Part shown: positions 4,085-60,402 of the stretch, in pieces
How the letters are laid out: every line of letters begins with the position of its first letter
Position numbering within the stretch: position 1 is the first letter of the stretch
Source: Deroplatys truncata
Taxonomy: Eukaryota > Arthropoda > Insecta > Mantodea > Mantidae
Length of the DNA stretch: 64,000 nucleotides
Reading direction: 5' to 3'
Assembly: GCA_030765065.1 (NCBI GenBank)
Contig: CM060990.1
Location: 461,612,321-461,676,320 of the forward strand
The notes under the pieces: generated by a model
What the model was told of the DNA's origin: nothing
Databases searched by the model: none
Seen by the model: only the letters and a program-made list of their open reading frames with translations
Made by a program: the position numbers and the translations under genes

Positions 4085-5366
4085 CGAGGGTGGATTAATA
4101 AGCCAGTGGCTTTTTAAAGAAAATAACAATTTGCTCCAAAAAAATCAATGTTATTTCTCAACATAGTCTCCTTTCAATTCAATTCACGTTATCCCATGTT
4201 TCTCCAATTTTTTTAACCCTTCCAAAATATGATTTTTCGAAGTGTGCAAAATAGAGGTTGTTTCTGCCATGATGTGCTCACTGGACGTGAATTTCTTCCC
4301 AGTGAACCAATTTTTCAGGTTTGCGAAGAGGAAGAAGTCGCTCGGAGCCAAATCTGGAGAATGTGGTGGGTAGGTAGCAGTTCGTAACCCAGTTCCACAA
4401 ATTTTGCGATGGCAATGGCTGACTTGTGTGCGGGTGCGTTATCCTAGTGGAAGAGAACCTTTTTCTTCACCAAATGGGGTCGTTTCTTTAACATTACCTT
4501 ATGAAACTCATCCAGCATTGCGGCATAATATGAACATGTGATCGTTTTACCCTTTTCCAGGTAGTGGATGTCTATCACCCCTTTGAATCCCAAAAGACGG
4601 CCTGCCATGATTTTTCCTGCCAACGGAATGGTTTTCGCTTTCTTTGGAGCAGGTTCGCCGAAGGAAATCCACTGCTTTGATTGTTGTTTGGTTTCAGGTT
4701 GATAGTAATGGATCCGAGTTTCACCAACCTTGATATAACGCCGCAAAAACTCATTTGGGTTGTGCTAGAACATGTTCAAACATCCCTGTGAAATTGTCAC
4801 ACGATTCCTCTTGTTCTCAACTGTGAGCAGTCACAGTACCCATCTTGCTGACAGCTTTCTCATACCCAAAACTTCATGCAGAATGTTATACACCCGCTCA
4901 CTCGAGATGTTTACGGTCTTGGCCATCTCACGGAATTTTACTCGGCGGTCTTCCAACACAATATCGTGAACTTTGTTCACCATTTCTTCTGTTGTAACCT
5001 CAACCGGCCGTCCTGTGCGCAACGCATCTTTTGTGTTCGAACGGCCACATCGAAATTCTGTGAACCACTTGTGAATCATACCATGTGATGGAGCAGAGTC
5101 ACAATAACACTTGTTTCTTCCGTTTCCTTCACCGTCTTACCACGGAAAAAGTAGTGCTTTATCAGAACACGAAATTCACTTTTCTCCATTTTCTACGAAG
5201 CAACACACGTCTGCTTATTTTAGACGCTCTCAACAACGTTCTAAGAAACAAATGACGTATTTCTGCGATTATCCTCAGAATAGATGTAAGACTTGGGTGC
5301 AAACAAGAAACCTGTGATTAGAAGGTTATCGCTCGTCAAAGTCATGGACTTATCAATCCGCCCTCG
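4085..5366 (-). mobile_element. Mariner-family DNA transposon, near full length
   Basis: The element is 1282 bp, about the usual size for mariner. It is bounded by inverted ends CGAGGGTGGATTAATAAG (left) and CGAGGGCGGATTGATAAG (right, read on the minus strand). TA dinucleotides flank it at 4083-4084 and 5367-5368, as expected for TA target duplication. It carries one transposase frame on the minus strand, now broken. The ends are still well matched, so the element is only moderately old and its ends could in principle still be recognised by a related transposase supplied elsewhere. Confidence 0.9.
4184..5189 (-). pseudogene. Mariner transposase, inactivated
   Basis: About 335 codons against a usual length near 345. 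The start is the ATG at 5187-5189, opening MEKSEFRVLIKHYF. An N-terminal helix-turn-helix region follows (HKWFTEFRCGRS, RPVEVTTEEMV), then the linker (ERVYNILHEVLGM), then the DDE core. The first catalytic position reads VGETRIHYY near 4715-4730; mariners have DET here, so the first Asp is Gly. The second is preceded by a TAG stop within an H-stop-DNAPAH block near 4443. The third, SPDLAPSDFFLF, is intact but in another frame. Further frame breaks occur near 5110 and between the N-terminal and central parts. The gene is dead by several independent lesions. Confidence 0.9.
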
Positions 5367-5480: not shown

Positions 5481-5711
5481 GTCGTTTGTCGTTCTCCGTG
5501 GTCTAGGGTACCATGCTAGCGTCTAGTTCCCGAGGTTGCGGCTTCAAACCCGACGGAGTACGATGGATTTTTTCGGGCGTAAAAATCCTTAGCATGGCTT
5601 CCTTCGGAAGGGAAGTAAAGCTGGGAAAAATTACCGGTCTTTCACGCCCAATATAGAATGTGACGCTAAGGACCACAGCAGTTAAAGAGCTTCCATAAAT
5701 AAAAAAACAAA
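5481..5711 (+). mobile_element. SINE family A, copy 1, with target duplication
   Basis: The tRNA-like head has a box A-like GTGGTCTAGGGTACCATGC and a box B-like GGTTGCGGCTTCAAACCC at about 5533-5550. A body containing GGCTTCCTTCGGAAGGGAAG follows, and the end is CCATAAATAAA plus an A-rich tail. AGGTTTTACATT at 5469-5480 and AGGTGTTACATT at 5712-5723 match at 11 of 12 positions and are a likely target duplication. Compared with copies at 43183 and 59244 it lacks about 60 bp in the middle. It is the only copy keeping a recognisable complete head. A minus-strand open frame over it is incidental. Confidence 0.8.
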
Positions 5712-16750: not shown

Positions 16751-17190
16751 TGGTTGTTTGAAGGTAGAATGGTATCTATGTTTATCAAATAATGATGGCG
16801 ATAGGGGACATCCTTCTTACATACTTTATTAGTGTATGAAATTGTATTATAAATAACTGTCAGTTTTTTGTTATAGAGTACTTTGAGTTGTTTAGTGGTA
16901 GAGGTATAAAGCTACAAAGGAAAATAGAAAGAACCTTATCTTAAAATATGGGTGAAACATCTATGTTGTTTGGAGCTTAAGGGATAGAGAGCACTTAGAA
17001 ATCTGCTGAGACAAGGCTTTCGCAAATTTGCACCTCTCACAATACAAAACACGAGCTTCCCCTCACGTCATCTCAACTCTTACCTACAAAGTGTTCAATT
17101 TTCCTCTTGCCTCTACTCAGCTTTCAACAGTATAGTCTTAGAAGTATAAAGGTATGGTCCTAAGGCTCGGCAAGAGTTAAAGTTTCCTCG
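16751..17190. other. Unannotated spacer
   Basis: About 440 bp without a recognised feature, leading into the long inverted repeat. Confidence 0.4.
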
Positions 17191-17730
17191 TAAGGTAAAA
17201 TTTGTAAACAAATGGACACTCATTACAGGCAAGACGAATAGTAGGGAAGAAAAGACAGAGCTGACGCAACAATTTTGGCCAATATGGCCACCATGCCCAA
17301 TCTAAATTTGAGAGAGGAGGAGTTAGATGTATGGGGAATGATTCGAGATTGCTGCCGGTGGTTTGTATTCAGGATTGATGATGTAAGAACCTTGCTATGT
17401 CTAGATGGGTTGATGATGGATAGTCCATGATTATGTAATCTAAGGAAGGAGAGCAGAGAGGAGGTGGGGTTTTAGTATGTGAGAGACGTAGGATAGTATA
17501 AGACAGTGTTCATTTACTAGTTCAGATAAATGTAACCTTAAGAATACATGCTAGTCTGGGCAGGAACATTAGCTGGTATAGCCGGTCACAAAAATCGCAG
17601 AATGGTTTGCAGTATTTGACAGAGATGGTGTAACAGGTAGGATGGCGAGATAGCATGATGCGCAACCTCACCTGATATACTGACAATGTAGTTAACCTCT
17701 CATTATTAACGTGTATTTCTTAAATAACCA
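17191..17730 (+). repeat. Left arm of a long imperfect inverted repeat
   Basis: The left arm is collinear with the reverse complement of 17785-18345. Strong matching blocks are GATTATGTAATCTAAGGA at about 17430-17447 with its partner at about 18090-18107, GACAGAGATGGTGTAA at about 17618-17633 with its partner at about 17875-17890, and CTCATTATTAA near the loop with its partner near 17808. By eye about two thirds of positions agree, with small indels. The symmetric centre computed from several block pairs falls consistently near 17755-17770. The outer limit is uncertain by some tens of bases. Neither arm has a sustained open frame. It may be a foldback transposon, a hairpin-RNA locus or a chance inverted duplication. 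Confidence 0.75.
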
Positions 17731-17784
17731 ATAACGGAAAAGTAAAATAAACGAGGTTTTATACACGACGACGTAAAATACATC

Positions 17785-18345
17785 AAGTTATTTACGTAAT
17801 GCATATTAATAATGACAGGTTAATTGCACTATCAGTCGGTTAGGTCCCAATCCGCCTATACATATCAAACCCTTTACATCATCTCTGTCAGACATTGCAG
17901 ACCAAACTGCGATGCTTATGATCGGCTATACCTCCTAACGTTTTTGTCCAGTAAGTATCGCATGAATACATAAGACTCATCTCGTAAGTGAGGTTAGATC
18001 TGATCTGGACTGGTAAATGAACTCTACCTTATACTCTTACTTCTACCGCACACTAATCCCACCTCCTATCAGCTTTCTCCGCTCTCCGTCCTTGGATTAC
18101 ATAATCAGAGAGTATTCATCATCATCCCTTATAGACATAAGAAGCCTCTTACATAATGAAATCCGAAACCAAATGACCGACAGATACCTTGGGTCATCAT
18201 CTATCCATCGACCTCCTCTCACACATCCCTCGATTGCGCACGGCGGCCATCTTGCCCAAAATGGTGTGGGCCAGCTATGTGTCTTCTTCCCTACCCAAGC
18301 CTTTTTGGCCCTACCCATTTCTCTAATAAACACTTACCGTTAATA
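17785..18345 (-). repeat. Right arm of a long imperfect inverted repeat
   Basis: Partner of the left arm. Read on the minus strand from 18345 it gives GTAGGGAAGAAGAC, TTTTGGGCAAGATGGCC, GATTATGTAATCCAAGGA, TTCATTTACCAGTCCAGAT and GGTATAGCC in the same order as the left arm. A loop of about 54 bp (17731-17784) separates the arms. Divergence between arms implies the structure is old, or that the two arms were never identical. Open frames at 18017-18343 on both strands do not resemble a known protein. Confidence 0.75.
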
Positions 18346-19158
18346 TCCGTTTATAAAATAACACTCAACCTCGAACTTGTATTTACTTTTAAACAACCTG
18401 TAGGTACAAATGTATTAGTAACCAGAAACACTTGGCATTGGATTGAGTGTATTAAATGAAAATATTTGAGAATACCTAATAAAGTCAAGGAATCCCCCAA
18501 TTGTGACGTTGCGAGAGAGGAAAAAACTTAGATGTATTTAGCTAAAATTGAAAAGGAAAGGAAGATAGACAAATTGATTTGTTTTCCGCATAAGGAAATT
18601 TGCTCTGGATAGAAGAAGTATGCTGGCAGTTTTAACTGAAACTATATTACAATATGTTTTATTTTTTAAACAGTGCAAGGCACATTTAGCAGGGTGACTA
18701 AGCTTAAAAATGTTTCTTACTGATCATGGTTATGCATATTTTCAAACACAGAAATGTAAGGATAGTAATTCGGCATATCCTTTAAGTTCTTGGGGGACTG
18801 TTAAGGTTTATGAATCCTGTAAGCCACTAACACTGAAATTTTCACTACGGAACTCGTTCCACAATTTTTCCCCATCAATATGGAAATTATTATATAAGCA
18901 CGGATGAAACACAGGAATATCTTATTCCTGCTCACCTTCCTTGGAACTAGAAAAACGAAGATCACCATAATGATCATTTTACCCACTGCGTCTTTATAAA
19001 ACCAAACGCTTAAGGGATTATACTGACGAAACTGTAGCTGGCAATAACAAAATCAAGACTTAAAACAGCGCTTTTTATATACAACGGACAAAAGCTGTAA
19101 GACATTCTAGTAGTTGGCTATGTTGTAAGATATGCAATACTTACCTTATATTAAGAAA
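18346..19158. other. Unannotated AT-rich spacer
   Basis: About 800 bp, no recognised feature. Confidence 0.4.
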
Positions 19159-19166
19159 GTCTAAAT

Positions 19167-19322
19167 CAGAGGTGTCGAAAACGTGACTCGCGAGGCATTT
19201 TGACTCGCAGACGCACGTTCCCTCTCTGCAACAGTTCGTTTGATTTTCACATGCTGTTGAGTTACGCCGTGCGTGTTGCATATTTACTGACTCGCGGAAG
19301 GAAATCATTTTCGCCACCCTTG
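19167..19322. mobile_element. hAT-type MITE with perfect 8-bp target duplication
   Basis: A 156-bp segment is exactly flanked by GTCTAAAT (19159-19166 and 19323-19330). The ends are inverted repeats: CAGAGGTGTCGAAAA on the left and, read inward on the minus strand, CAAGGGTGGCGAAAA on the right, with 12 of 15 positions identical. Further inside, both ends have a GACTCGCG word near the inner edge of the repeat. There is no coding capacity. The CAG start, the GTGG/CGAAAA ends and the 8-bp duplication all fit hAT. The perfect duplication suggests a younger insertion than the other hAT-like pieces here. Confidence 0.85.
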
Positions 19323-19330
19323 GTCTAAAT

Positions 19331-20449
19331 CAATAAAGTCGGTAGATCTGAAGGAAACTTACTCATATGCTATAAGCGCATTAAATATTTCCTTACTGAC
19401 AAGTTTGATATAGTCAGCGCTACAGCAGACAGGAAATAAAGGAATTCGCCACTTTATTACACCTTCCCTTATTCACTGCAGGATATTTAAATAAAAGTAA
19501 CTTGTGCTAAGTGTTCGAGAACATAAAATAACTGCATTGGAAGTAAAACACAGATTAACTGATGTTTATAACAATTTTGGGTAAACCTGCAAATGTTAGA
19601 AAGCTATATGCAATAATTTTTTTAACAAGAAATATTTTCCCAAATTTACATCCGGTGCTGTTTTTTCTATGGGGGAGGCTAAAGCAGCCTGCACTATGCT
19701 CTGGTCTGCTATCACTTTCAGGTTCAATTCAAGAACAAGAAATCCACAGATACGATTTGGATAGCACACCTAGTGAATCTGGACCGGTAAGGACGCGACA
19801 TGGTGAGCTAGATTTGTCGTCAGAACGTCGAGTCAAGCAGCCAGGCATTTCATTATCTCAATCATTTTGGTGGCTGGAGATGTTTATGACTTTCTTTTTT
19901 ATTTAAACGTTTACAAGCGTTTCGCTGTTAGACTAGTGTTAATATTGCAATGCCATTTCCATCCCGATGGACATTCGTCTTTGTCTGGTTTTGTACAAGC
20001 TACATAGCCCTAAGGACATTGTCTCGCTTGAGATGCACTCTAAGAATGACTACAATCTCGTCAAAACAATCACTCTCTTTATTCTATTGACTTTGCTAAC
20101 AAAACAAGCTAGTGTGTTTTCCGTTATCTAGATGTTCACAGATGTCATACCTACAGAGATTTCTAACGTGTTTAATGTCTGGGGTGAATTTCTTCTTCTG
20201 AATGCTTCCACAGCCGCATAGCTCTTCATTAGTCCCATTAGTTTAAACCAGTAATGGCGAGAGGTGACCTGATTGTTACAGCGCTATATGCTCGTCTATT
20301 CAAATATTCATATCCAGTTCAAATATTCTAAACACCCCAGATATGAATTGCTTTAAAGTAACGGAAATCTTCAATTTCGTGTTGGTGGTGGTGGCGCTGA
20401 CAGCGGCGGTGATTCTGGTGGTACAAGGACACTTATCTTCTCTTTCCTT
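19331..20449. other. Unannotated spacer
   Basis: About 1.1 kb. A forward frame of 114 codons at 19562-19906 carries no recognised motif. A GGTGGTGGTGGC patch lies near 20382-20393. Confidence 0.4.
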
Positions 20450-21500
20450 TATTTTCCTCTGCTTCAAACTTATTAACAGTTTCTCTTATTTGGTGTTCTC
20501 ATTTCGTCTATACCGTTTTCCAGTTGAGCATCCCTTTTAGTGAATCCTTTGGCAATCAGTTTCTTCTCGTTCTGAGTTTCAGCCCATTATCTCTTTCCTC
20601 CTGAACAACTTGACCACTGTTCTTTCTTTGCTTATTTTTTCTAAAACAACTTCATTAATTATTTTCCTGACCATTCCTGGAGCTCTTCTCCTGCCCTTTC
20701 TCATTTAAGATGCGCCCAATCGTTTATCTCACTATGTTGCAACCTTCATATTCCAGTACTATATAGCACAATCAATCACAAAAAGCACTTCGATAACCTC
20801 TTCCTTGCTTCTTTCTACAAGAGTAATTTTTTTTCTATTAAAAGCTTCATTTGCAAATGTTATCCTCTGTTTTACTTCTTGACAACAGCTCATTTTACTA
20901 CTGTTGGTGCATTACAGGCTTATAAGGCTGTTTACTTGCTCTAGTACAACGTTTTGAATCCGCTTGAGAGCCAATCTGTTCGTTTTATGTTTTGTTGTGT
21001 TTTGTACATTTATCTTCATCAACTCTAACAATTGACATTAACATTGCAACATAATTAGCAAATATTAAACATTTTTTCTTCTTCCTCCTCACACTACCCT
21101 TCCTCCCTTGCTGTGAAAAAAGGTTCTTCACCGTATTCCCCAAGTAGATATTGAACAGTGTGCGCGATAGTGGATATCCCTGTCGTACGAGTATCCCTAT
21201 TCTACTTCTCTCTGATATATCGTCTCCTAACCTGACTAATTAACTGTTTCGTATAGATATACTTAGGAGGTTTCTATCTCTCGAAATCACAGTTTTCTTC
21301 AGAATATCCACTAGTTTCTTGCAAACATTTTGCAACTGCCCTTTTGACATCCACAGATGTCCGTACTTGTTTCTTGCTCTTTGTGTTAACAACGTTCGCT
21401 GATTGTTTGCAGGAGTCCATTTGCAACTTGGTTTCGTTCTGTTTTTTTCAAATGAATTGTTCTCCTGATTCCTGATTAAGTGTTCTAAGCAAACCACCAC
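20450..21500 (-). pseudogene. Non-LTR retrotransposon (LINE) reverse transcriptase remnant, antisense
   Basis: Read on the minus strand, the segment gives ILKKTVISRDRNLLS (about 21305-21260), then VRQGYPLSRTLFNIYLGN (about 21190-21135). The latter is the RQGCPLSPTLFN block of LINE reverse transcriptase. Downstream in frames interrupted by many stops are EARKRLSKCF and LYSTGI, resembling the post-RT region. The expected Y/F-A-D-D catalytic box is not recognisable. The remnant runs 3'-wards to about 20450. It is too decayed for a clade assignment and differs from the LINE at 31290. The plus-strand frames over it are incidental. Confidence 0.65.
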
Positions 21501-21534
21501 TGCCACCGCCACCGCCGCCTCCACCACCACCACC

Positions 21535-22670: not shown

Positions 22671-23248
22671 GCTAGGAATGATCAGATGGAGAGGCCTCCA
22701 GTAACTTGAGCATAGCACCACAGGTAGGCCATAGTGGACTCTAGTGCTTCCAAAGTGGACCCTGGGAGGAAGGGTTGAAGGGAGACCCGAATGCCGACCG
22801 AAAGACGATTTTCGCTAGTAAGGACGGGATCCCTAACGATTCCAACATGACACCAATCCTGACGCTGGCAAGCCTTGCCTTGCCACCCGCAACCTGGAGG
22901 TCCCGAGAATATATGAGACACTCCTGGGATGTAAGGGCCTCCAGCAGTTTCGTCAAGCACCAGAAGAAATGTTTTCATAGTGCATCTTCCACCGTTTTGC
23001 CGCAACATACCAACCGCCGTCGCCTAATCCTACAACCTTGAAAGAGATGAGGTGAAACAGATGAAAGAAAATGATGGACAGAAAATTCGTGGTAGAAGGT
23101 GAACCATCCCAGCATTTGCTTGCGACCGAGGAAATCACGAAAAAAAAAAAAAAAAAAAAACACGAAGTAGCCCGCTCGACTGGAATCGAAGCCGGAACCT
23201 CCCAAATGCGGGCCTCACACGTTTCAGCGAAAACATCTCGCTCGGTTT
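22671..23248 (-). mobile_element. SINE family B, full-length minus-strand copy
   Basis: Flanked by CGAAGTGTAGA (22660-22670) and CGAAGTGTGGA (23249-23259), 10 of 11 identical, a likely target duplication. On the minus strand it begins ACCGAGCGAGATG, has a box B-like GGCTTCGATTCCAGTC, and then tracks the 24888 copy through GGATGGTTCACCTTCTACC, CATGTTGGAATCGTTAGGG and TTACTGGAGGCC to the end. At 578 bp it is long for a SINE; I cannot exclude that it is the tail of a longer element. A run of 21 A at 23140-23160 is an expansion of an internal T-run of the family. Open frames over it are not conserved in the partner copy. Confidence 0.8.
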
Positions 23249-23259
23249 CGAAGTGTGGA

Positions 23260-24876
23260 AGTTTCCACTTTTCGGAGCCGGCACTTCCATCGAATTTCGT
23301 TCTATAGCTTTTATTTTACTCCTTCGAAATTACTTCCAATTCCTCGCTTCCATAGCATCAAAACATCAACTGCAACCATGGCCAAGTGAAGCGCAACATG
23401 TGTCTTGGTAAGAGGTCACCATATTGTTTAAACTTGGCGAATGAAAGATGAAATACGTTACGCGTAAATGGAAAAATAATAATAATAAAAAAATTATGCA
23501 TTAGTTTTCCGCGCTTGTGACTTAATTAGCTGATATTGTGATTGTATTTCACAGAAATAGTAACGAATAGTGTTAGTAAAGAGTATCAATGAGCACTGAC
23601 TAGGCTAATCGTTGTCTATATTTCTGCGCTTATTAAATAATTTATTTTCATTAATGCAACTTAGTTTATGTGTCATTTGTGTAAATTTTAAGGTTAAATG
23701 TACGTCATATTGAATAATACCACAAATGCAATGAACGTTTCGGTTACATACGACGTTAAGTAGGTATACATAAGGTTGGCGTTCCAAAAATAAGCAAAAA
23801 CTGCAATGTTTTCGGATGTAATCCATTAACATCCGCATTTTCTTGCGCTAGCCTATGTAACATTAGAGAATAACAACTCAGTATTTATTACCTCATAGCA
23901 TATGTTCTAAAAGTAATAGATACGGAGTTTTAAAAATAAAATGTCGAAATAAATTACTTAAAAAGTTCATACAAAAAAATCATGATCCAGTTACGGTTTT
24001 GCTCTTATAGCCTAAACGTGACATTTAAATTGGGGTGAGCAGATGTCTGCAACTAGAGTGCGTAACTATAAAACATAATTTCCTTAAATCTTTTCATAGA
24101 TTTTTTATAATTTTAAAATGCTACTCGTGATGTAATTATTGTTTATTTTCTTTCACATCTTCAGTATATCTTCTTTGAAGTTGAGTGGAGAGACCTAGAG
24201 CCATTTAGAAGTGCAATAATTTAATATGTGATTCCTTTTTAGAAAATTATAAGGGTTAAATAATTTTTTATTTTCTAAGGAACTTTAATTTTAGCCAAAA
24301 TTTAATCGTTTATTGTAAAAAAACTATATTAGAGAAATAATATATAAAATTTAAAAGTAAACCTTTCAAATGTTCATAATATGCTGAATTTCACACACGT
24401 TTTACGCTTCTAAAATTATTTTCTAGGAAAGTTTTTCAATTAAATTGGTTAAAATTTGTGGAAATTAGCAATTTCAATACCGAGTACTCTTAATTAATCC
24501 ATACACTGTTTATTTGATGTATCCCAAGTTGAGTTGAAACTGTCGCAACAATCTCAACATAGACATTACAACGTTGTGCCTTCGGCGGTTCACTTCTGAT
24601 CAGATTGCTGTATCATAAAAGAATGGAGAATCTATTTGCAGTAACGATTCCGAAAATATATGTTACATATCACTAAAAACCCAAGTGTAGGTTTATTTCA
24701 AATTGGTTATTCATTAAACATTCAAGAGTGTCGCCACTGCCAAAGAATCTTGGAGAAATAGGTTCCCAGTCTCTGGCTTCTCAGTGAATCAAGGCAGCAT
24801 CACTTTGTTGTTGTCCTTTACCTAGGCCTCAAGCAAATGTGAGCGTGTCTCCGAAAAACCACAAATCCATCATTTA
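23260..24876. other. Spacer between the two inverted family B SINEs
   Basis: About 1.6 kb of AT-rich sequence with no recognised gene or repeat. It would form the loop if the flanking inverted SINEs paired in a transcript. Confidence 0.45.
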
Positions 24877-24887
24877 TCTGGCAAACT

Positions 24888-25425
24888 GAGCGAGATGGCT
24901 CTGCGGTAACACGCGAGGGTTGCTTTTCGGAGGTTGCAGTTCGATTTCCATCGGTTTGGCCACTCTGACCATGGTTTTTTTGTGATTTCCCCGGGTCAGT
25001 AGGCGGATGCTGGGGTGGTTCCCCTTCTACCACGAATTTACTTTCCATTATTCCCTGTTCCCAGGGCAGTTTATGTGTTACGGTAGGACGGTGGAATTTG
25101 CGCAATGGAAAGATTTCTCCCGTGCGTTTTGTGTGACTACCGGGGTCCTCTTCCTTCCTGGAAGTTCCCGTCTACTCCGGGTATCCCCAGGTTGCGTGTG
25201 ACTAAGGCAGGGCTAGCCGGCATCAGGGTTGGTAGCATGTTGGAATCGTTAGGGAGTCCGTCCTTGCTAGCGCATATCGTCGTCTTATCAGTTCGCTCTC
25301 TTCGGGTCTCCCCTTCCTTCTAGGGGTCACGTTGGAAGCACAAAGGGCCCATTATGGTCTACGTGCGGTGCTGTGCTCCAGTTACTGGAAGCCCCTGCAT
25401 CTGTTTACTTCTAAATTCTAACATG
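24888..25425 (+). mobile_element. SINE family B, full-length plus-strand copy
   Basis: Flanked by TCTGGCAAACT (24877-24887) and TCTGGCAAGCT (25426-25436), 10 of 11 identical. The head starts GAGCGAGATGGCTCTGCGG, with a box B-like GGTTGCAGTTCGATTTCC at about 24944-24961. The body and 3' half follow the minus-strand copy closely, ending TTACTGGAAGCCCCTGCATC. It gives the best plus-strand reference for this family in the window. No shared open frame is kept between copies. Confidence 0.8.
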
Positions 25426-29885: not shown

Positions 29886-31289
29886 GATATGCATGGATTC
29901 CGGATTCATCTGGTAATTTATTTGTCTTATTTCTTTCCACTTATCTGTAGATCTGAGTTATCAGACTTTAGAGAGAAATAAGAGAAGCAAAGAACGCTCC
30001 CTACCCAACCCAATGCTAGACAGAGGTTATCTTTCTCTTGCACAGAAAGGAAGCTTCACAGTCTATTGGAACCTTCCCCATCAATCCCGATTTAATTTTG
30101 AGTGAAACTGAGTTTTTAAACCAAACGGCATATAATGAATATTTGCCCTTAGAAAGTTGCATTACCGGATCAGTTGGTTAAACCACTGGAAAGTATTGGC
30201 CAGAATTTGAATGTTGGGGGTTACCAAGTTTGATTACTTGCTTCGGTTCTACCAAGTCTGTGGTAAAGGATGCGGTGATCCTACATAAAGTAAACGGTGA
30301 CTGGCATGCGTGGATGTTGTTGAGACTTTGGTATCAATGTGATGGAACAAATGTTTTGTGTTCATATTAAAGTATGTACGATTTTGCTTTATTTTTGTAT
30401 TTTATTTATTTCAAGCTACTTTAATATAAATATATTTGAGTAAACCACTACAATGTGTGGCAATAAAACTAAATAACTGTGAAAGCTAAACATTTCTTGT
30501 AGCCGTTTTAATATCTGCAATGATCTGTAAATAGGTCCACTCGGACAATAGATCCACTCTTTTGAAAATAGTGCTTGAATTTTGAGGTTAGGTGTATCTA
30601 CCGTCGAAATGAGCTTTAAGGACGATATATATTGAATATTGAAATATTTTTCTAATGAAAATACTGGCTGGTTAGTCTCCGGAAATGAAGGAATACAATG
30701 TATCTGTTATCTTATCAAATGAAACAACGTTAATCTGTGGTATGTAAGGAGGTCTTGGAGATGGGTGTAATTCTTCAAAGGGGTAACATATGGAAAATTC
30801 TGGATCAAAATGAGAGAAATATCACGTAGTGACTTCAAAAGATCAAGCTACACAGGGCATGCTTACAAAAATCTCTGAAGCGGGCACCCGACGTTGGTGA
30901 TGGGTCCAGCCTATTCCTTTATTGCTCCTAACGCTCCCACTCCGATCGAGGAGTAGTTTCAAGGAAGTAGTTCGGGTTTCACTGCAAGGAAGAAGTTTCT
31001 TCCTTTTGTGGAAGTCATTCCTTTGGAAATACTTCCAGTTTTTCACTCCGGAATGTACCCAGACCGACATCCTCCATCCTAAATCTCACTCCTACTTCAA
31101 GCATGGAGAAGTTGTAATGTCATTTGCAGTAAAGAAAACGATAACCAACGGGACGCCACAATGTGGGTGGATGTAACACTTTTAGTTTAATAACAGTGGG
31201 TTGGTAAACCGAATTGTTATTATTCTATTAAATTCATTTTCAAGGAGTATAGAGTATTCTGGTAATAAATAAACTTAAATATACTCGCA
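29886..31289. other. Unannotated spacer
   Basis: About 1.4 kb. A near-palindrome AAGGAAGAAGTTTCTTCCTT lies at about 30984-31003. No gene recognised. The 5' limit of the LINE downstream is uncertain by tens of bases. Confidence 0.4.
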
Positions 31290-34217
31290 ACCTCTCCGAA
31301 CTGTTTTATAAATTGGAAATCATAAACGGCAAGTATGGGTTAGATAAGGTAGGGGAATTAACTTTTAATAATAGTAATGGAGGAAGTGTCATAGATTATG
31401 TAATTTGTTCACAGGAATTAATACCATTAATAGAGGACTTCCAAATTGTAAATAGAGTCGAATCACACCACTCGCCCATCTTACTGGCTTTAAATAGATG
31501 CTCAAACAATGTAGGGGAAACAAATGAAAAAATTGCTTTGTCATCTATGTCGAGATATCGATGTAACCCAGAGGGAAGCGAGGAATTTCCTGCCGTTTTG
31601 CATGATCGGACATGTAAAACTAAAGTGGGGGAAAGAAACGGGGAACATGTTATTAAAACAATAACAAACAATTTACAAATAGCTGGTAGAAGCATGAGAA
31701 TTAGAAATAACAAAAGAATCTCGAATGCTTCAGCCTGATACAATGGTAAATGTAAAGAAGCGAAGAAAAAAGATGAAATAGCACTTAAGGTGTATAGAAG
31801 TGAAGGTACTGAGAAAAAGCGCCATTCATAGGCCCAAATTAGAAAGCAGTATAAAGATATATTAGTAAGTGTATAGGCGGAATGGCAAAACAAAATGGCG
31901 GCGGATTTAAGAATAGCGACAGAACGGAGAGATTCGATATACATGTTGAAGGTAGTTGAGAAAATTAAAGTACGAAGACGGGATTACGTAAACATCAAAT
32001 CAGAAACATGGCTAGCGTTTTTTAGTAGTGTGTACGCTGAAGTTGGTGGGGAAGAGTGGGAGGGACCTCGGATGTCTTTCGCTGAACTGTGCTTAAATCC
32101 CACAGTACCAATTCTAGATGAGGAAATAACTGACGGTGAAATTGCTCGGGCAGTAAAAAGCCTAAAGAATCACAAAGCACCGGGTATTGAAGGAATTCCG
32201 AGCGAATTTGTTAAATGTTCCATAGAAGTTCCTAAAATATTAGATCTCCTGCGGGAGGCCTTTAACAAATTATTTAACGGAGAGAAGTATCCTGAAGCTT
32301 GGACAACAGCAATTATTCAGCCAATATTCAAGGCCAATGTTACCACTCAGCAACCAGAAAATTATAGCGGAATTGCACTGTTATCTATACTGGGTAAGAT
32401 ATATTGCAAAATTATCTATGGCCGGTTAAGGGGCTGGGTCAAAGAGTTCGATATAATTTCTAAGTTTCAGGCGGGTTTCAGGGAAGGGTTCTCTACTGCA
32501 GACATTATTTTCGTATTAAAACACTAATTTATTCAAATTTGAATAGAAAGAGGGTGCTTTATTGTGCATTTGTTGATTAAAAATGGCTTTTGATAGCGTG
32601 CAGAGGAATGCCCTTTGTGCAGAGAGTTCATCACAAAGGACTCTCTGGTAAAATGATGAAAGCTCTGATGCAAATTTACAACAGTGTGAATTTCAGCATC
32701 AAAATAGACCAAAATGCAATAACTGAATCTAAATCGGCCAGTAGAGGAGTTCGTCAAGGAAGTATTTTATCGTCCCTGTTGTTCAATTTATTCATAGACT
32801 ATATAGCAGACGTGTTAATAGCAGAGGAAACGAATGCCCCAAAAGTAGACGATGTCTGCATCTCTGTGTACTTATACGCGAATGATATGACAATTTTGTC
32901 AGTGACGATATAAGGCTTACAGAAAGGTATTAATAGGTTGGAAGAACGTTGTAAACAATGGGGTTTGGTCGTTAACATTAATAAAACGAAAACAATGGCA
33001 TTCAAAAATGGCTATGTGTATGGCAGGGATGAAAAATGGTATTACAAGGGGCTAGAACTACAAAACGTTAAACATTTCTCCTATTTAGGAGTAATGTTTA
33101 ATATGAGAGGAAAATGGAACAAACATCTATCAGTAACTAACTACAAAGCACGAGGGCAGTTAAATGAATTATTACGTACCCTCTCGCTAACCGGATGTAC
33201 CTGTAGACATAATAGAAAACATGTATAACTCTATGATAAGACCGATTTTGTTAATCGGAAGTGAAATCTGGGGATGGGAAAGAGCAGAGCATGTAAATAA
33301 AACGCAGGTAGCATTTTGGAAAAGAGTTCTTGGAGTTTCACAAGGCACATCAAATTCGGGGGTATTGAGGGAGGTGGGATGTTGTGAAGATACAATACAC
33401 TGTAAAATAACAGTAGTGAAGTACTGGTTGAGGCTGATGCAGGGGGATAACTCCACACTACGATCAAAATGTTATAAACACCAGCGAGAAAACCTGTCTC
33501 CTAAGTTTTGGGCAGGTGATTTGGAAAGGGGTTTGAGGAGAATAGGAATGGGGTCAGTATGGCAAAGAGCTGAAACAAATGACAAAAACATACGGAAAGG
33601 TGTCAAAAAAGACTAAGAGACAAACCAACAGGAAATAGATCGGATTGTAAAATTAAACCTTCTCTAAGTCTAGCAAATGAAATAAAATTGAATTCGGGTA
33701 AAGAGGCATATATACTTAACTTAGGAAGAAAGGAAAGATCAGGAATGCTATGGTTTAGACTGGGGGGCTGGAGGGCACAGAAAATGACTGACGATTCTGG
33801 CAAGAGAATCTGCCCATTCTCTGATTTGGATTAGGACTGGGTACATATTTTGGCGGAATGCGCTCAGTGGGAGAACTAGCGAACAATTAAATTCAAAGAA
33901 AAATTATTAAGTCCGTCAAGAAAGAGATTGGCATGTTGGGATCTACTGGCTGACCAGAGGAACTGGTAAAACATGGGAAATTTCTTGGCTAAAGTGCGCA
34001 AGCTAGTTCAAATTTGTTCAGTTAGTCAAAAGTAATTTATCTCTATTTTCCTTTTTCTTGTTCTTTTTTGTTTTGTTTTCTTTTTCTGTTGTTTATTTTG
34101 TCACCATACCTTGTATCTTAAATATGCATGTACGGTCAATGACCCATGCACTAAATACTTGTGTAATAACTTCAATAATTTGAAACCAATAAAGATACCT
34201 TATCCATCCATCCATCC
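31290..34217 (+). pseudogene. 5'-truncated non-LTR retrotransposon (LINE) ORF2
   Basis: The forward protein begins at the end of an AP-type endonuclease: NSNGGSVIDYVICS, then VESHHSPI where SDHSPI is expected. Stops interrupt the linker near 31737 and 31830-31875. Reverse transcriptase follows: KNHKAPGIEGIPSEF, ENYSGIALLSILGKIY, FQAGFREGFSTAD, a frame change near 32530, AFDSVQRNAL, RGVRQGSILSSLLFN, and YAND at 32873-32884 where YADD is catalytic. WGLVVNINKTKTMAF and the C-terminal region (frame change near 33195) end with CPFSDLD and HILAEC, a zinc-knuckle-like tail. The element closes with AATAAAG and CCATCCATCC tail repeats at about 34188-34217. It is likely of the CR1/L2/Jockey group; exact clade not determined. 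Dead. Confidence 0.85.
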
Positions 34218-37402: not shown

Positions 37403-37900
37403 ATGCGTGTTGAGGAAGAAGTGTTGTGACAGTTTGTTCTCGACGGCCAGCGAAGAAGGACTTTTATTGAGCTTTGTGTCTGGGAACTTTCTGCTCCACA
37501 CTTTTCGGCCTTGTCTAAATTATGCATAACATATACTTTTGGCGTAAGTAAAATTTTAAATTCTTGTAGTGTGTGGAGCGGCATTTAAAAACTCATGGAA
37601 GCGAGTTTATATCATATTATCGCGTGATTAATTTCATTTCAAAATGGCAAATGTTGTGTGAGAAGGACGAATTGAAATGCAATGTGTTTCGATTGTAATA
37701 TATCTCTGTTTCTACATTTAAGTGTTAATATATTCAGTACTTTTGGGGCTGTACGGATTGTTATTTTTATTTAAAGCTGCTTTAAATCCTTGTTCATTTC
37801 CTTTAGCCTTTGGTAGTGCAAACAGTTATTACTCTGGGGAAGTGCTTTATTCCCAATGCATTCTATAATGGGCCCGGCATTTTACTTTTCTAGTTTTTTT

Positions 37901-37961
37901 TAAGTAATTGTGACATTCTATGCATCGACTACTTCTAAATCGGCCTTGCAAGAACGTTACA
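37901..37961 (+). repeat. 61-bp direct repeat, gag-start copy
   Basis: TAAGTAATTGTGACATTC to GAACGTTACA, preceded by a T-run. It matches 40075-40135 at 59 of 61 positions by eye. This copy lies at its native place in the leader/gag junction. Confidence 0.9.
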
Positions 37962-38760
37962 AAAATGTTAACAGAGCGTCGCCTGTGCCGTTAGCCCCAT
38001 TTAACTTTCAACCATTGAAAATAGATGACCCAGCACAGAAATTACTTCCGGCTAAACCACTTTTGGTGAACACTCCAATTCAAGCGTTGGAATTTTTGGA
38101 TCTTTCTCTTCGCCTTTATGATTCTTCAGCAGAAATATTTTCTACTTTTGTGGATTTTTATAAGTTATTATTAACTATTTTGGAAGGCAAAATTGTACAC
38201 TTAGTACAAACGGCATTATAGTCGGAGTTTAGTATTGAGGTTTTTCATGACTCAGATTTACATTTTTTCTTTCCGCCTCGGATACTTTCTTCGTTTTTGA
38301 CTTCATATTACTATGGCATACAAGCACCACAGGAAACTTTGCCTTTGTTGATCGAGTTCGTAAATATTCCAGTATATTTCGCGTTCCAGATTCGGAACTT
38401 CAAATCTGTGAACTTATTCTTTCGGGGTTAAATGATCCTACACGACTTCAATGTACTTTCGTTTCGCGACCAACATCATTCGCTGACCTTCATCAGATGA
38501 TTAACTTGGTACAACAAGTTCAGAGTACAACTTATTCTCCTAATAGCTCAGTTAAATCTACACAGGCGAACACTACTGACTTTCAGACTTTGTCTCCGGC
38601 TTCTACAAATTCTAGTAATAATTCTAGTAATTTTCCGCGATCTACAGTTTCACGTTGCGCATTTTGTCAAAAATTTGGACATACTATTGCCAATTGTTTT
38701 CGGCGTAAACGTCTGAATCAAAATAGGGAATTTCGTCCATCGCGACTATTACCTCGACAA
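37910..38760 (+). pseudogene. Gypsy gag, broken
   Basis: The forward gag-like reading starts around ASTTSKSALQERYKNVN, has a stop at about 38219-38221, and resumes in other frames with VPDSELQICELILSGLN and RPTSFADLHQMINLV. It ends with a CCHC knuckle CAFCQKFGHTIANC at 38656-38697 (C-x2-C-x4-H-x4-C), the RNA-binding nucleocapsid motif. A basic, Arg-rich tail follows. At least two lesions. No alternative start with better support was found. Confidence 0.75.
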
Positions 38761-38779
38761 TCCGTTCCTACGAGATTAT

Positions 38780-40062
38780 CTTCTATTACCGGTGTGCCCT
38801 TTGTTTCTCTGCCAGTGATTTTAGTTCTTTGCGGTTCACAAACGGTATCCGCTTTATTAGATTCTGGCAGTGATTTAAATTTGGTAAATTTAAAAATTTT
38901 GAATACGTTACCATGTTCATTAAAGCGTTCCCTTCAACCTCAACAAGCTTCAGCTATTGCTGTATCAGGAACACCAGTACAAATTATCGGAACAGTTAAA
39001 TTGCATATTAAAATGCACAATTTCTCTTGGTACGTACATTTTTCTGTGGTCCCTCAATTGACTTATTTTTTTAATTTTGGGTAAACCTTTCATGCGTCAT
39101 GCGCAAATATTGCTCGATTACTCTAATTTTACCATTACCTTTGCCTTCTGCCCGCATCATTTTTCAAAATTTTCGTTGGGATCCCGAACCCTTGCGTCTC
39201 TACATTCTACCGATGGAATATTGGCTTCTTTGGGAATTAATTTGTTGCATTTATCCAACAACGTGTATTAGTAGATTATACTGATGTTTTGACGGATAGG
39301 ATATGGCTTGTACGTGACTTTAATTATCAAATTCAATTATTGGATAACACTCCGGTCCGTAGTCCACCATTTAAGCTTTCACCTCCTAGAATGAATCTTC
39401 TCCGAGACTTAGTTGATCGCATGTTACAGGCTGGAATTATAGAACCATCTGACAGTTCCTACGCCAGTCCATGTTTTCTTGTGCAAAAGCTAACAACGAA
39501 ATGCGTTTAGTAGTGGACTATCGTCGCTTGAATAAGCATATAGTTTTGGATTCTATGCCTCTACCTCAATTACATGATGCAGCTCATCATTTTAAGAATG
39601 ATAATGCTTTCGCGATCTTAGATTTAAATGAGGCATACTACCAAATTCCGTTGGATCCTTCTGCGCGACCTCTTACGGTCTTCATTACCCCGTGGAATTT
39701 ATATCACTTTTGTAGGATCCCTTTTGGGATATCAACTGGTGCGCAGGTCCTTTCCCGTTTGTTGGACCGTATATTTCATAAATTTAAATTTCGTTTTGTT
39801 TTCAATTACCTTGACGATTTAGTAATCTATTCTCCGGACTATACTACTCACTTACAGCATCTTCATTTAGTTTTCGATGCTCTTCGTCAAGCTGATCTTA
39901 CCGTTCGCCCTTCAAAGGTCACATTTGCTGTGTCCCAGATATCTTTTCTCGGACATTTAATTTCACCTGCTAGAATATCTATAGATACATCTCGGACGCT
40001 AGCCATCCGTAATTATCCAGTACCTCGCACCCAGAAACAACGGCTTCATTTCTTGGGATGGT
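38780..40062 (+). pseudogene. Gypsy protease and reverse transcriptase, broken and truncated
   Basis: Protease: ALLDSGSDLNLVN with the catalytic D-S-G at about 38860-38868. Frame changes near 39070, 39285 and 39490 separate the linker from RT. RT: VRSPPFKLSPPRMN, MLQAGIIEPSDSSYASP, VVDYRRLNKHIV, LDLNEAYYQIPLDPSAR and YLDDLVIYSP. The catalytic YLDD at 39807-39818 is intact. FLGHLISPARI and a terminal FLGWF follow. RNase H and integrase are missing. The RT block is the best-preserved coding stretch of this element. Confidence 0.85.
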
Positions 40063-40074
40063 TTCTTTTTTTAT

Positions 40075-40135
40075 TAAGTAATTGTGACATTCTATGCTTC
40101 GACTACTTCTAAATCGGCCTTGCATGAACGTTACA
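40075..40135 (+). repeat. 61-bp direct repeat, copy at the broken 3' end of RT
   Basis: Near-identical to 37901-37961 and preceded by a similar T-rich run (TTTTTTTATT versus TTTTTTTT). Beyond 40135 the similarity stops and AT-rich sequence follows. Two differences are an A/T at position 24 and an A/T in TTGCAAGAACG versus TTGCATGAACG. Confidence 0.9.
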
Positions 40136-43182: not shown

Positions 43183-43415
43183 TACGGAAGCGAGTCACGA
43201 ACCCCAATCCCTAAGCCAGATTCGGGCGCAAAGATCCATAGCATGGCTTCCTTCGGAAGGGAAGTAAAGCCGGTGGTCCAGTGCCGTAGATTTACAGCAC
43301 GTAAAAGAATCTCAAGCCTGATAAAGAGGCCTCTGAGCAAACTTTCCAGTCTTTCACGCCCAATATTGAATAAGACACTAAGGACCATAGCAGTTAAAGA
43401 GCGTCCATAAATAAA
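43183..43415 (+). mobile_element. SINE family A, copy 2
   Basis: The head is eroded, starting around a box B remnant (GTCACGAACCCC). The body contains the invariant GGCTTCCTTCGGAAGGGAAG at about 43243-43262, then GTAGATTTACAGCACG, GATAAAGAGGCCTCTGAGC, TCTTTCACGCCCAATATTG and an end CCATAAATAAAACTCA. It retains the central ~60 bp that copy 1 lacks. Frames on both strands are incidental. Confidence 0.8.
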
Positions 43416-44507
43416 ACTCAATTTATTTTTTTTACCTAAGCCAGTTACTTCAGCGAGAGCCGGCTGGTCCCCTGCCCCTAGGTGCCTAGGTGTTTTTTTA
43501 AAGTTATGCAACATGAGAAACAGAAAATGTACTTTTGATACGGCTTCCTCGTCCGCTCTACAGCTCATTTAGAAGACGTTGAATCACACTCAGTACAAAA
43601 ACTCTTTAGGTGACAAGAGAGTTTAGAGCGAGATCCAACACAAAAACATAGTTCCTTCTACTACAGTTACAACAGTTTTCTATGCGATTTTATAAACGTT
43701 TATTATACAGCACACTTTGCTACCCACCTTCGAAATCACCCATCATCTATCACATGGATCAAATGTCAAAATCAGCCTACAAAATGGCGTATCTAAACAA
43801 CTGGAGAAGCCATAGACTACACCCAGTTTGGAGACACGCCTATCCTCAAAATAGATGCTGTAAAGTGATACCACAGAGACATTAAATTAATCTTGAAATT
43901 CTGTCACGAATTACGCCTCGTAGGTTTGATATAGCATAGATATTAGTTTGTGCTATTTGATTAATGAATTTAAAGCGTCTAACAAGGCATACAGTCGTCT
44001 TAAAAGGGTGCATATTACCACCAAAGTTTGGAAGTAGAAACAGCAGTTCGCCTAGTGTAAAGCTTGATTAGTATTATTTAAAAGAGGCTGAAATTACAGG
44101 CAGCAACTATTTGAGTGGTAATAATCACCATACTTAGTAATGAAGTATCGTCGTGGTTTCAATACTTACATAGTATCAGCTTAATATTTTTCCTCCTTTT
44201 ATTTGTTGCTTTGGACTTCGGTTTGAAAATTGTTACTAGTGCACCGGATATATTACACTATATTAATAATTATCTAATTATAATTAGTGGTTGGTCGAAA
44301 TCTTCTGCCTGGTTGATAAAGGATTTAAACTGAATAAATAAAATAAATAATAAATAAATTGACACAAACAGGTTAGAATAATCGAACTTAAAATTCACAA
44401 CAATAGTTTTATACCCGTAATCTAATCGCCAACAAGAAACCAGAAACTGTTCTACAAAACAATTTTGTACAATCCGGCTTTTACATACACGCGAGCGCAC
44501 ATACGTC
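43416..44507. other. Unannotated spacer
   Basis: About 1.1 kb, no recognised gene. A short AAAT-rich run lies at about 44333-44361. Confidence 0.4.
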
Positions 44508-45110
44508 TGTGCGTATGTATGTGTGTATATGCATATGTACGTATGTGGTATGTGTATGTATGTGTGTATATATGTATGTATGTTTGTGTGTATATATATG
44601 TATGTGTGTATGTATGTGTATATATGTATGTATGTATATATGTGTATGTATATGTGTATATATGTATGTATATATGCATGTGTGTATGCATGTGTGTATG
44701 TATGTGTGTACATATGTGTGTATGTATGTGTGTATATATGCATGTTTGTATATACCTATGTATGCGTGTGTGTATGTATTTATGTATGCATTTATGTATG
44801 TATGTGTGTATATATATCTATGTATGTGTGTATATATGTGTGTATGTATGTGTGTATGTATGTGTGTATATATATGCATGTGTGTATATATGTATGTATG
44901 TGTGTATGTATTTATGTATGCATTTATGTATGTGTGTATATATGTGTTTATATATATATCTATGTATGTATGTATGTATATATGTATGTATGTGTGTATG
45001 TATTCATGTATGTATTATGTATTTATGTATGTGTGTATATATATCTATGTATGTGTGTAAGTATGTACGTATGCCTGTATGTATGTATGTATGTATGTAT
45101 GTATGTATGC
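44508..45110. repeat. Long (TATG/TGTA)n microsatellite of about 600 bp
   Basis: Nearly continuous 4-bp TATG/TGTG/TATA units with scattered variants (CATG, TATTTATG, GTGTGTA). All six frames stay open over much of it, giving Cys-Val-Tyr-Met repeats on the plus strand and His-Thr-Ile-Tyr on the minus strand. This is expected of a 4-bp repeat without stops and is not coding. The last ~45 bp are the purest TATG run. Confidence 0.97.
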
Positions 45111-59243: not shown

Positions 59244-59473
59244 GCGGGTTAAAACCCGGCGGAGGGCCATGGATTTTTTCGGGCGCAAAACTACTTAGCA
59301 TGGCTTCCTTCGGAAGGGAAGTAAAGCCGATGTTCGCGTGACGTGGATTTACGGCACGTAAAAGAACCTCAAACGTGATAAAGAGGCCTCTGAGCAAAAT
59401 CACTGTTCTTTCACGCCCAACATAGAATGGGACGCTAAGGACCACAGCAGTTAAACAGAGTCCATTAATAAAA
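59244..59473 (+). mobile_element. SINE family A, copy 3
   Basis: The head is truncated to the box B region, GCGGGTTAAAACCCGGCGG. The body has GATTTTTTCGGGCGCAAAAC, the invariant GGCTTCCTTCGGAAGGGAAG at about 59301-59320, GTGGATTTACGGCACG, GATAAAGAGGCCTCTGAGC, TCTTTCACGCCCAACATAG and an end CCATTAATAAAACTCAC. It is closest in layout to copy 2. Confidence 0.8.
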
Positions 59474-60402
59474 CTCACTTTAATTTTCAACTTCCGTTTC
59501 TTATCTATCTATTTTTATTCTTCTAGTTTGTATTTTTTGTGTTCACACGACTGTATAAGGGATTGGGCCTGCAAATTCGGCAGCTTTTAATACTCTTTGT
59601 GTGATATCTATTCAGATATATAAATTGCTCTTTAAGTTTTATTGATTATTGACTATGAAAGGATCAATCTGGTATTTAAGTAGTAAAGTATTTTATGCGT
59701 TTTTATAGTATCTTTTTTGATCTGGTGGCTTTGTTCAACCATGACTTGCAGCTTATAAGCGGGCACGCGAAATTTGCTCATCTTGTAGTTTGAAAGTTAT
59801 TGCCATAGTAAGTCTAAGTATTCTATAAAAGGTGGTTACACGAAATTTAGAGATTTTACTTCCTATATGTGCAACATTTTATATCATTCAATTCAAAACT
59901 TAGGAAGTATACATTAAGTAAATAAAGAAGTGGGTCGAAAAATAGAGGTGCTTTAAGAGCACCCTATAAAATTTAACATTCCTGTGCTTCTCCGTATTTC
60001 GACTCGGAATAACATGCCCAGATAGGTTAATCTAATCTTACAAACCTCTTAGGAACTGACCGATTAAAAGGTATTTCTATCTTTTATAAGATGCCTGATT
60101 CAATTTCTCGTGTGTGCGAGTGCTTTTATTTTTTTAATAAATTACAGTAGATTGCTTCAGAGCACTAGGACTAATGTCACCACTCAAATCTTTTGGGCTT
60201 TTATTATGCTTCACGTTACATTATTTAACTAGAAGTTATGTAGAATTTGTCTTCCTCAAAAATAAATAAGAAATGACGCAAAAGAAAAAGAAGCGCACTT
60301 AATATTTTGTCCATTTTTCAAAATCACGTTGTATTTCAATTGGCATCAATTCTTCTTTACTAACACTCCTTTATTGTGAGAGGAACGATGCTGCTCCGCA
60401 GC
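59474..60402. other. Unannotated AT-rich spacer
   Basis: About 930 bp, no recognised feature. Confidence 0.4.

Follow-up and report, generated by a model that had tools for sequence, protein, structure and literature searches.

An old, decayed palindrome in the genome of the mantis Deroplatys truncata, most likely left by a mobile element or a local inverted duplication

Two long inverted arms around a short spacer make up a palindrome of about 1,050 bases (positions 17241-18294, centre near 17758) in a stretch of 64,000 nucleotides of the Deroplatys truncata genome, hereafter the window (Table 1). The inverted repeat is real, but it is old and decayed. Its most likely origin is a mobile element or an inverted duplication in place, and no present function is supported. 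We put at about one half the probability that it is what is left of a dead, non-autonomous DNA transposon, palindromic and foldback-like; the choice between this reading and local duplication depends mostly on prior expectation.

Table 1. Segments of the palindrome in window coordinates
Feature	Position	Strand	Description
Left arm	17241..17728	+	488 bp; aligned locally to the right arm's reverse complement
Spacer (loop)	17729..17786	.	58 bp, GC 31%; between the aligned arms
Right arm	17787..18294	-	508 bp; local alignment with the left arm

In the local alignment of the arms, 361 of the 473 ungapped columns are identical (76%); the 112 mismatches comprise 54 transitions and 58 transversions, and the alignment contains 13 gap runs. 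A sequence-only reading of this DNA had proposed self-alignment as a check, and the inverted match is strong: BLASTN aligns the whole palindrome with itself at E = 1.25e-90 (67% over 1111 columns, gaps counted), and the arms score 396, whereas 500 dinucleotide shuffles of 17191-18345 average 28.3 and peak at 50, and the two halves of 1950-base stretches taken every 1000 bases elsewhere in the window reach 69 at most. The two collinear inverted arms described in that reading are borne out, with the matching blocks in the same order in both, but their supported length is about 490-510 bp, not 540-560 bp. Likewise, the interval 17191..18345 originally assigned to the repeat holds for its core but not for the outer 50 bp or so on each side, where similarity is at the chance level.

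The ends of the palindrome appear well defined. The outermost 50 alignment columns are 84% identical. Outside them, 17191-17240 paired with 18295-18345 scores 53, a value matched by 14% of 2000 random pairs, and the 110 bp flanking each side score 81, matched by 32% of 2000 random pairs, so that both are at chance. An element with defined ends should show this combination; a local inverted duplication would end just as sharply. A longer element spanning 17191-18345 was considered and rejected, its outer parts being no better than chance.

Target duplications at the edges, another check suggested by the sequence-only reading, were not found within 5 bp of the palindrome. A wider edge scan yielded one 10-bp pair with 2 mismatches, random places averaging 6.4 such matches, and three exact 7-bp pairs around the edges (for example, ACACTCA at 17216 and 18361), which is approximately the number estimated for chance. 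This edge test is weak, given that an 8-bp duplication would survive intact at 76% identity in an estimated one case in nine, and the loss of any target duplication is expected because the arms are so decayed. Mutator-type target site duplications are 8-10 bp long according to the relevant part of PMC4079207, and excerpts of PMC5225508 describe 8-9-bp duplications for 14 mosquito Mutator-like (MULE) families, with terminal inverted repeats (TIRs) longer than 100 bp in 12 of the 14.

Folding, too, agrees with what had been read from the letters, namely, a single long, bulged duplex with a small loop. The plus strand (1054 nt) is predicted to form one long stem of 391 pairs at -483 kcal/mol, compared with a mean of -268 (sd 8) for 40 dinucleotide shuffles (z = -26); 17191-18190 folded alone gives z = -38 (20 shuffles), and the fold energy of the minus strand is -469.7. 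Uninterrupted helices include three of 19-20 pairs on the plus strand and none longer than 13 pairs on the minus strand. When the transitions were assigned randomly to either arm, a run of 20 was reached in 43% of 20000 draws, and at least three runs of at least 15 in 26% of 20000 draws. A longest helix as short as that of the minus strand would arise by chance with a probability of 0.028 in a given strand and 0.056 in one or the other, and a between-strand difference this large with one of 0.17. The helices carry no clear strand signal.

The predicted plus-strand stem, with its three long helices and the lack of comparable ones on the minus strand, is what speaks for a functional hairpin-RNA locus, the transcript of which would be diced into siRNAs. 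In a duplex under selection, G-U pairs should be a commoner outcome of the differences than A-C mismatches. Here, the transition differences leave G-U in 26 cases and A-C in 28 (p = 0.89), without any G-U excess; with a G-U preference of 0.70, a count of 26 or lower out of 54 would have a probability of 0.0006, and with a preference of 0.65, one of 0.008. When the 112 mismatches were exchanged randomly between the arms, the fold energy averaged -474 (sd 13; 120 draws), and 27% of the draws matched or exceeded the stability of the actual hairpin. The near-equality of G-U and A-C and an energy inside this swap null imply that the arms diverged like two neutral copies, and there is no sign that the hairpin shape is kept by selection. 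Both tests address long-term constraint, not present-day transcription. A decayed inverted repeat can accordingly yield a very strong folding z-score by itself, and two simple nulls, G-U versus A-C and arm-swapped differences, separate a decayed repeat from a conserved RNA hairpin.

The comparison with known hairpin-RNA (hpRNA) loci of Drosophila (PMC10317233, in the excerpts considered) goes both ways: inverted arms, a short loop and a predicted long duplex are shared, but the arms here are at 76% identity, show no sign of pairing constraint and would form a putative hairpin with no indicated target gene, the 108-residue frame at 18017-18340 in the right arm being without a homologue. In the same excerpts, hpRNAs are all evolutionarily young, and the targets of the youngest respond most, in contrast to the strongly decayed repeat here. 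We consider a functional hairpin-RNA locus quite improbable, and the suggestion of an siRNA source made in the sequence-only reading gained no support, the stability of the fold being that of neutral reassortment. We would give very little credence to the variant in which an old locus is still transcribed from the plus strand and diced from its few helices of 19-20 pairs; were it true, an siRNA source could survive over tens of millions of years although perfect duplex remained only in patches.

The extent of decay allows a rough estimate of age. The Kimura two-parameter (K2P) distance between the arms is 0.286, and neutral rates are approximately 2-5e-9 per site per year; assuming such a rate and change in both arms, the divergence would correspond to some 30-70 million years. 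Runs of identical columns reach a length of 13 at most. In shuffles that drop gaps, the longest run averages 19 and reaches 13 in 98% of cases; in shuffles that keep gaps, it averages 17.6 and is as short as 13 in 12%. We draw nothing about an even spacing of mismatches from these run lengths. CpG counts, all small, are 9 in the left arm (observed/expected 0.49) and 18 in the right arm (0.82), and the spacer is CpG-rich, with 5 CpG (3.58).

The content of the palindrome gives no hint of a gene. Mismatches show no clear codon-phase bias (42/158, 37/158 and 33/157), and of the arms' frames, those searched were right-arm ones: two that overlap this arm match no Pfam family. With no clear codon-phase bias, no Pfam family for these two frames and no homologue for the one queried, a coding origin of the arms is not supported. 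A known RNA family was also rejected, the 64-kb window containing zero Rfam matches at gathering thresholds, and no tRNA was detected in the window under bacterial settings. Neither a transposase frame nor a recognised terminal motif was found, and Tandem Repeats Finder reported no tandem array at a score of at least 50 in 16751-21534. A second copy of the arms or the spacer is absent from the 64-kb window (best E-values: arms, 0.29; spacer, 0.063). A 19-base arm pattern had 0 matches in the viral_contigs collection, where such a genome is not expected.

The reading that we favour is that of an element consisting of little more than a pair of long terminal inverted repeats separated by a short spacer. 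A transposase acting in trans would have inserted it, and its arms would thereafter have diverged neutrally to their present identity. What the analysis shows is the palindrome itself, the fall of similarity to chance beyond its edges, the absence of a coding signal and neutral-looking decay; past mobility is inferred. Long arms around a spacer of this size, the neutral-like differences (in pairing, fold energy and codon phase alike) and the presence, 4.4 kb away, of another long and decayed inverted pair (its middle 1.57 kb long) all favour a transposon, and the retroelement-like frames nearby, with an RVT_1 match at 39453-40109, indicate that the region holds mobile elements. Against it stand the lack of another copy in the 64-kb window, of a target duplication at the edges, of a tandem array in the arms, and of a transposase frame or recognised terminal motif. 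The foldback idea of the sequence-only reading is still a leading candidate.

Among known elements, Tetris and DAIBAM of Drosophila virilis (PMC4079207), Galileo (PMC3573991) and Muta1, a Mutator-like element of Aedes aegypti (PMC5225508), resemble the palindrome in having long terminal inverted repeats that enclose hardly any coding sequence or none, and in being able to fold into a single duplex. As in foldback and long-TIR elements, the long TIRs here form most of the element. Galileo and Tetris carry tandem repeats inside their arms, a feature not found in every foldback-like element and missing here; the palindrome also differs from foldback-type transposons in that no target duplication was found and no family is shown.

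The same structure could have arisen if some 500 bp of ordinary sequence had been copied, inverted, alongside its source (template switching in replication is one possible way) and both copies had then decayed neutrally. Consistent with such a local inverted duplication, within the window the arms match each other only, the edges lack a target duplication, the decay is neutral, and neither arm, taken singly, has terminal repeats at its ends (scores 16 and 18, without a null for comparison). No result contradicts it, although the absence of copies is weak evidence, the window being only 64 kb; we regard it as a possible, if tentative, alternative. Two independent copies of a dispersed repeat, inserted by chance in opposite orientation 58 bp apart, seem unlikely to us. 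The start and end points of the unit are the same in both arms, as they would be for two full-length copies, and dispersed repeats do occur in the window, but no third copy of the unit is present in these 64 kb, an arm has no terminal repeats, and two full-length insertions would have had to land next to each other. If the palindrome is a neutral fossil, its importance beyond annotation is small.

The second inverted repeat of the window pairs 22673-23277 with 24849-25413 (arms of 605 and 565 bp), with 409 matches and 137 mismatches (75% of ungapped columns identical), 44 G-U and 37 A-C; a narrow scan found no target duplication. Kinship of its arms with those of the first was rejected, with 8 scores of 23-28 against a median of 27 at 300 random places. 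With two long, decayed inverted pairs in 64 kb, this window alone holds more than one example of the shape. A dispersed repeat occurs in one orientation at 43221-43430, 59278-59487 and 5537-5704 (copies 85-89% alike). Broken retroelement-like frames span 31253-33613 and 38251-40109, the RVT_1 match lying above the Pfam cutoff, and a 68-bp direct repeat (37894-37961 and 40068-40135; 96% alike) flanks the frames at 38251-40109. An HTH_32 match at 4834-5136 is weak and below the Pfam cutoff. Simple repeats in the window are AT-rich, and at 44513-45109, a 600-bp degenerate array of the GTAT tetranucleotide leaves long open frames on both strands.
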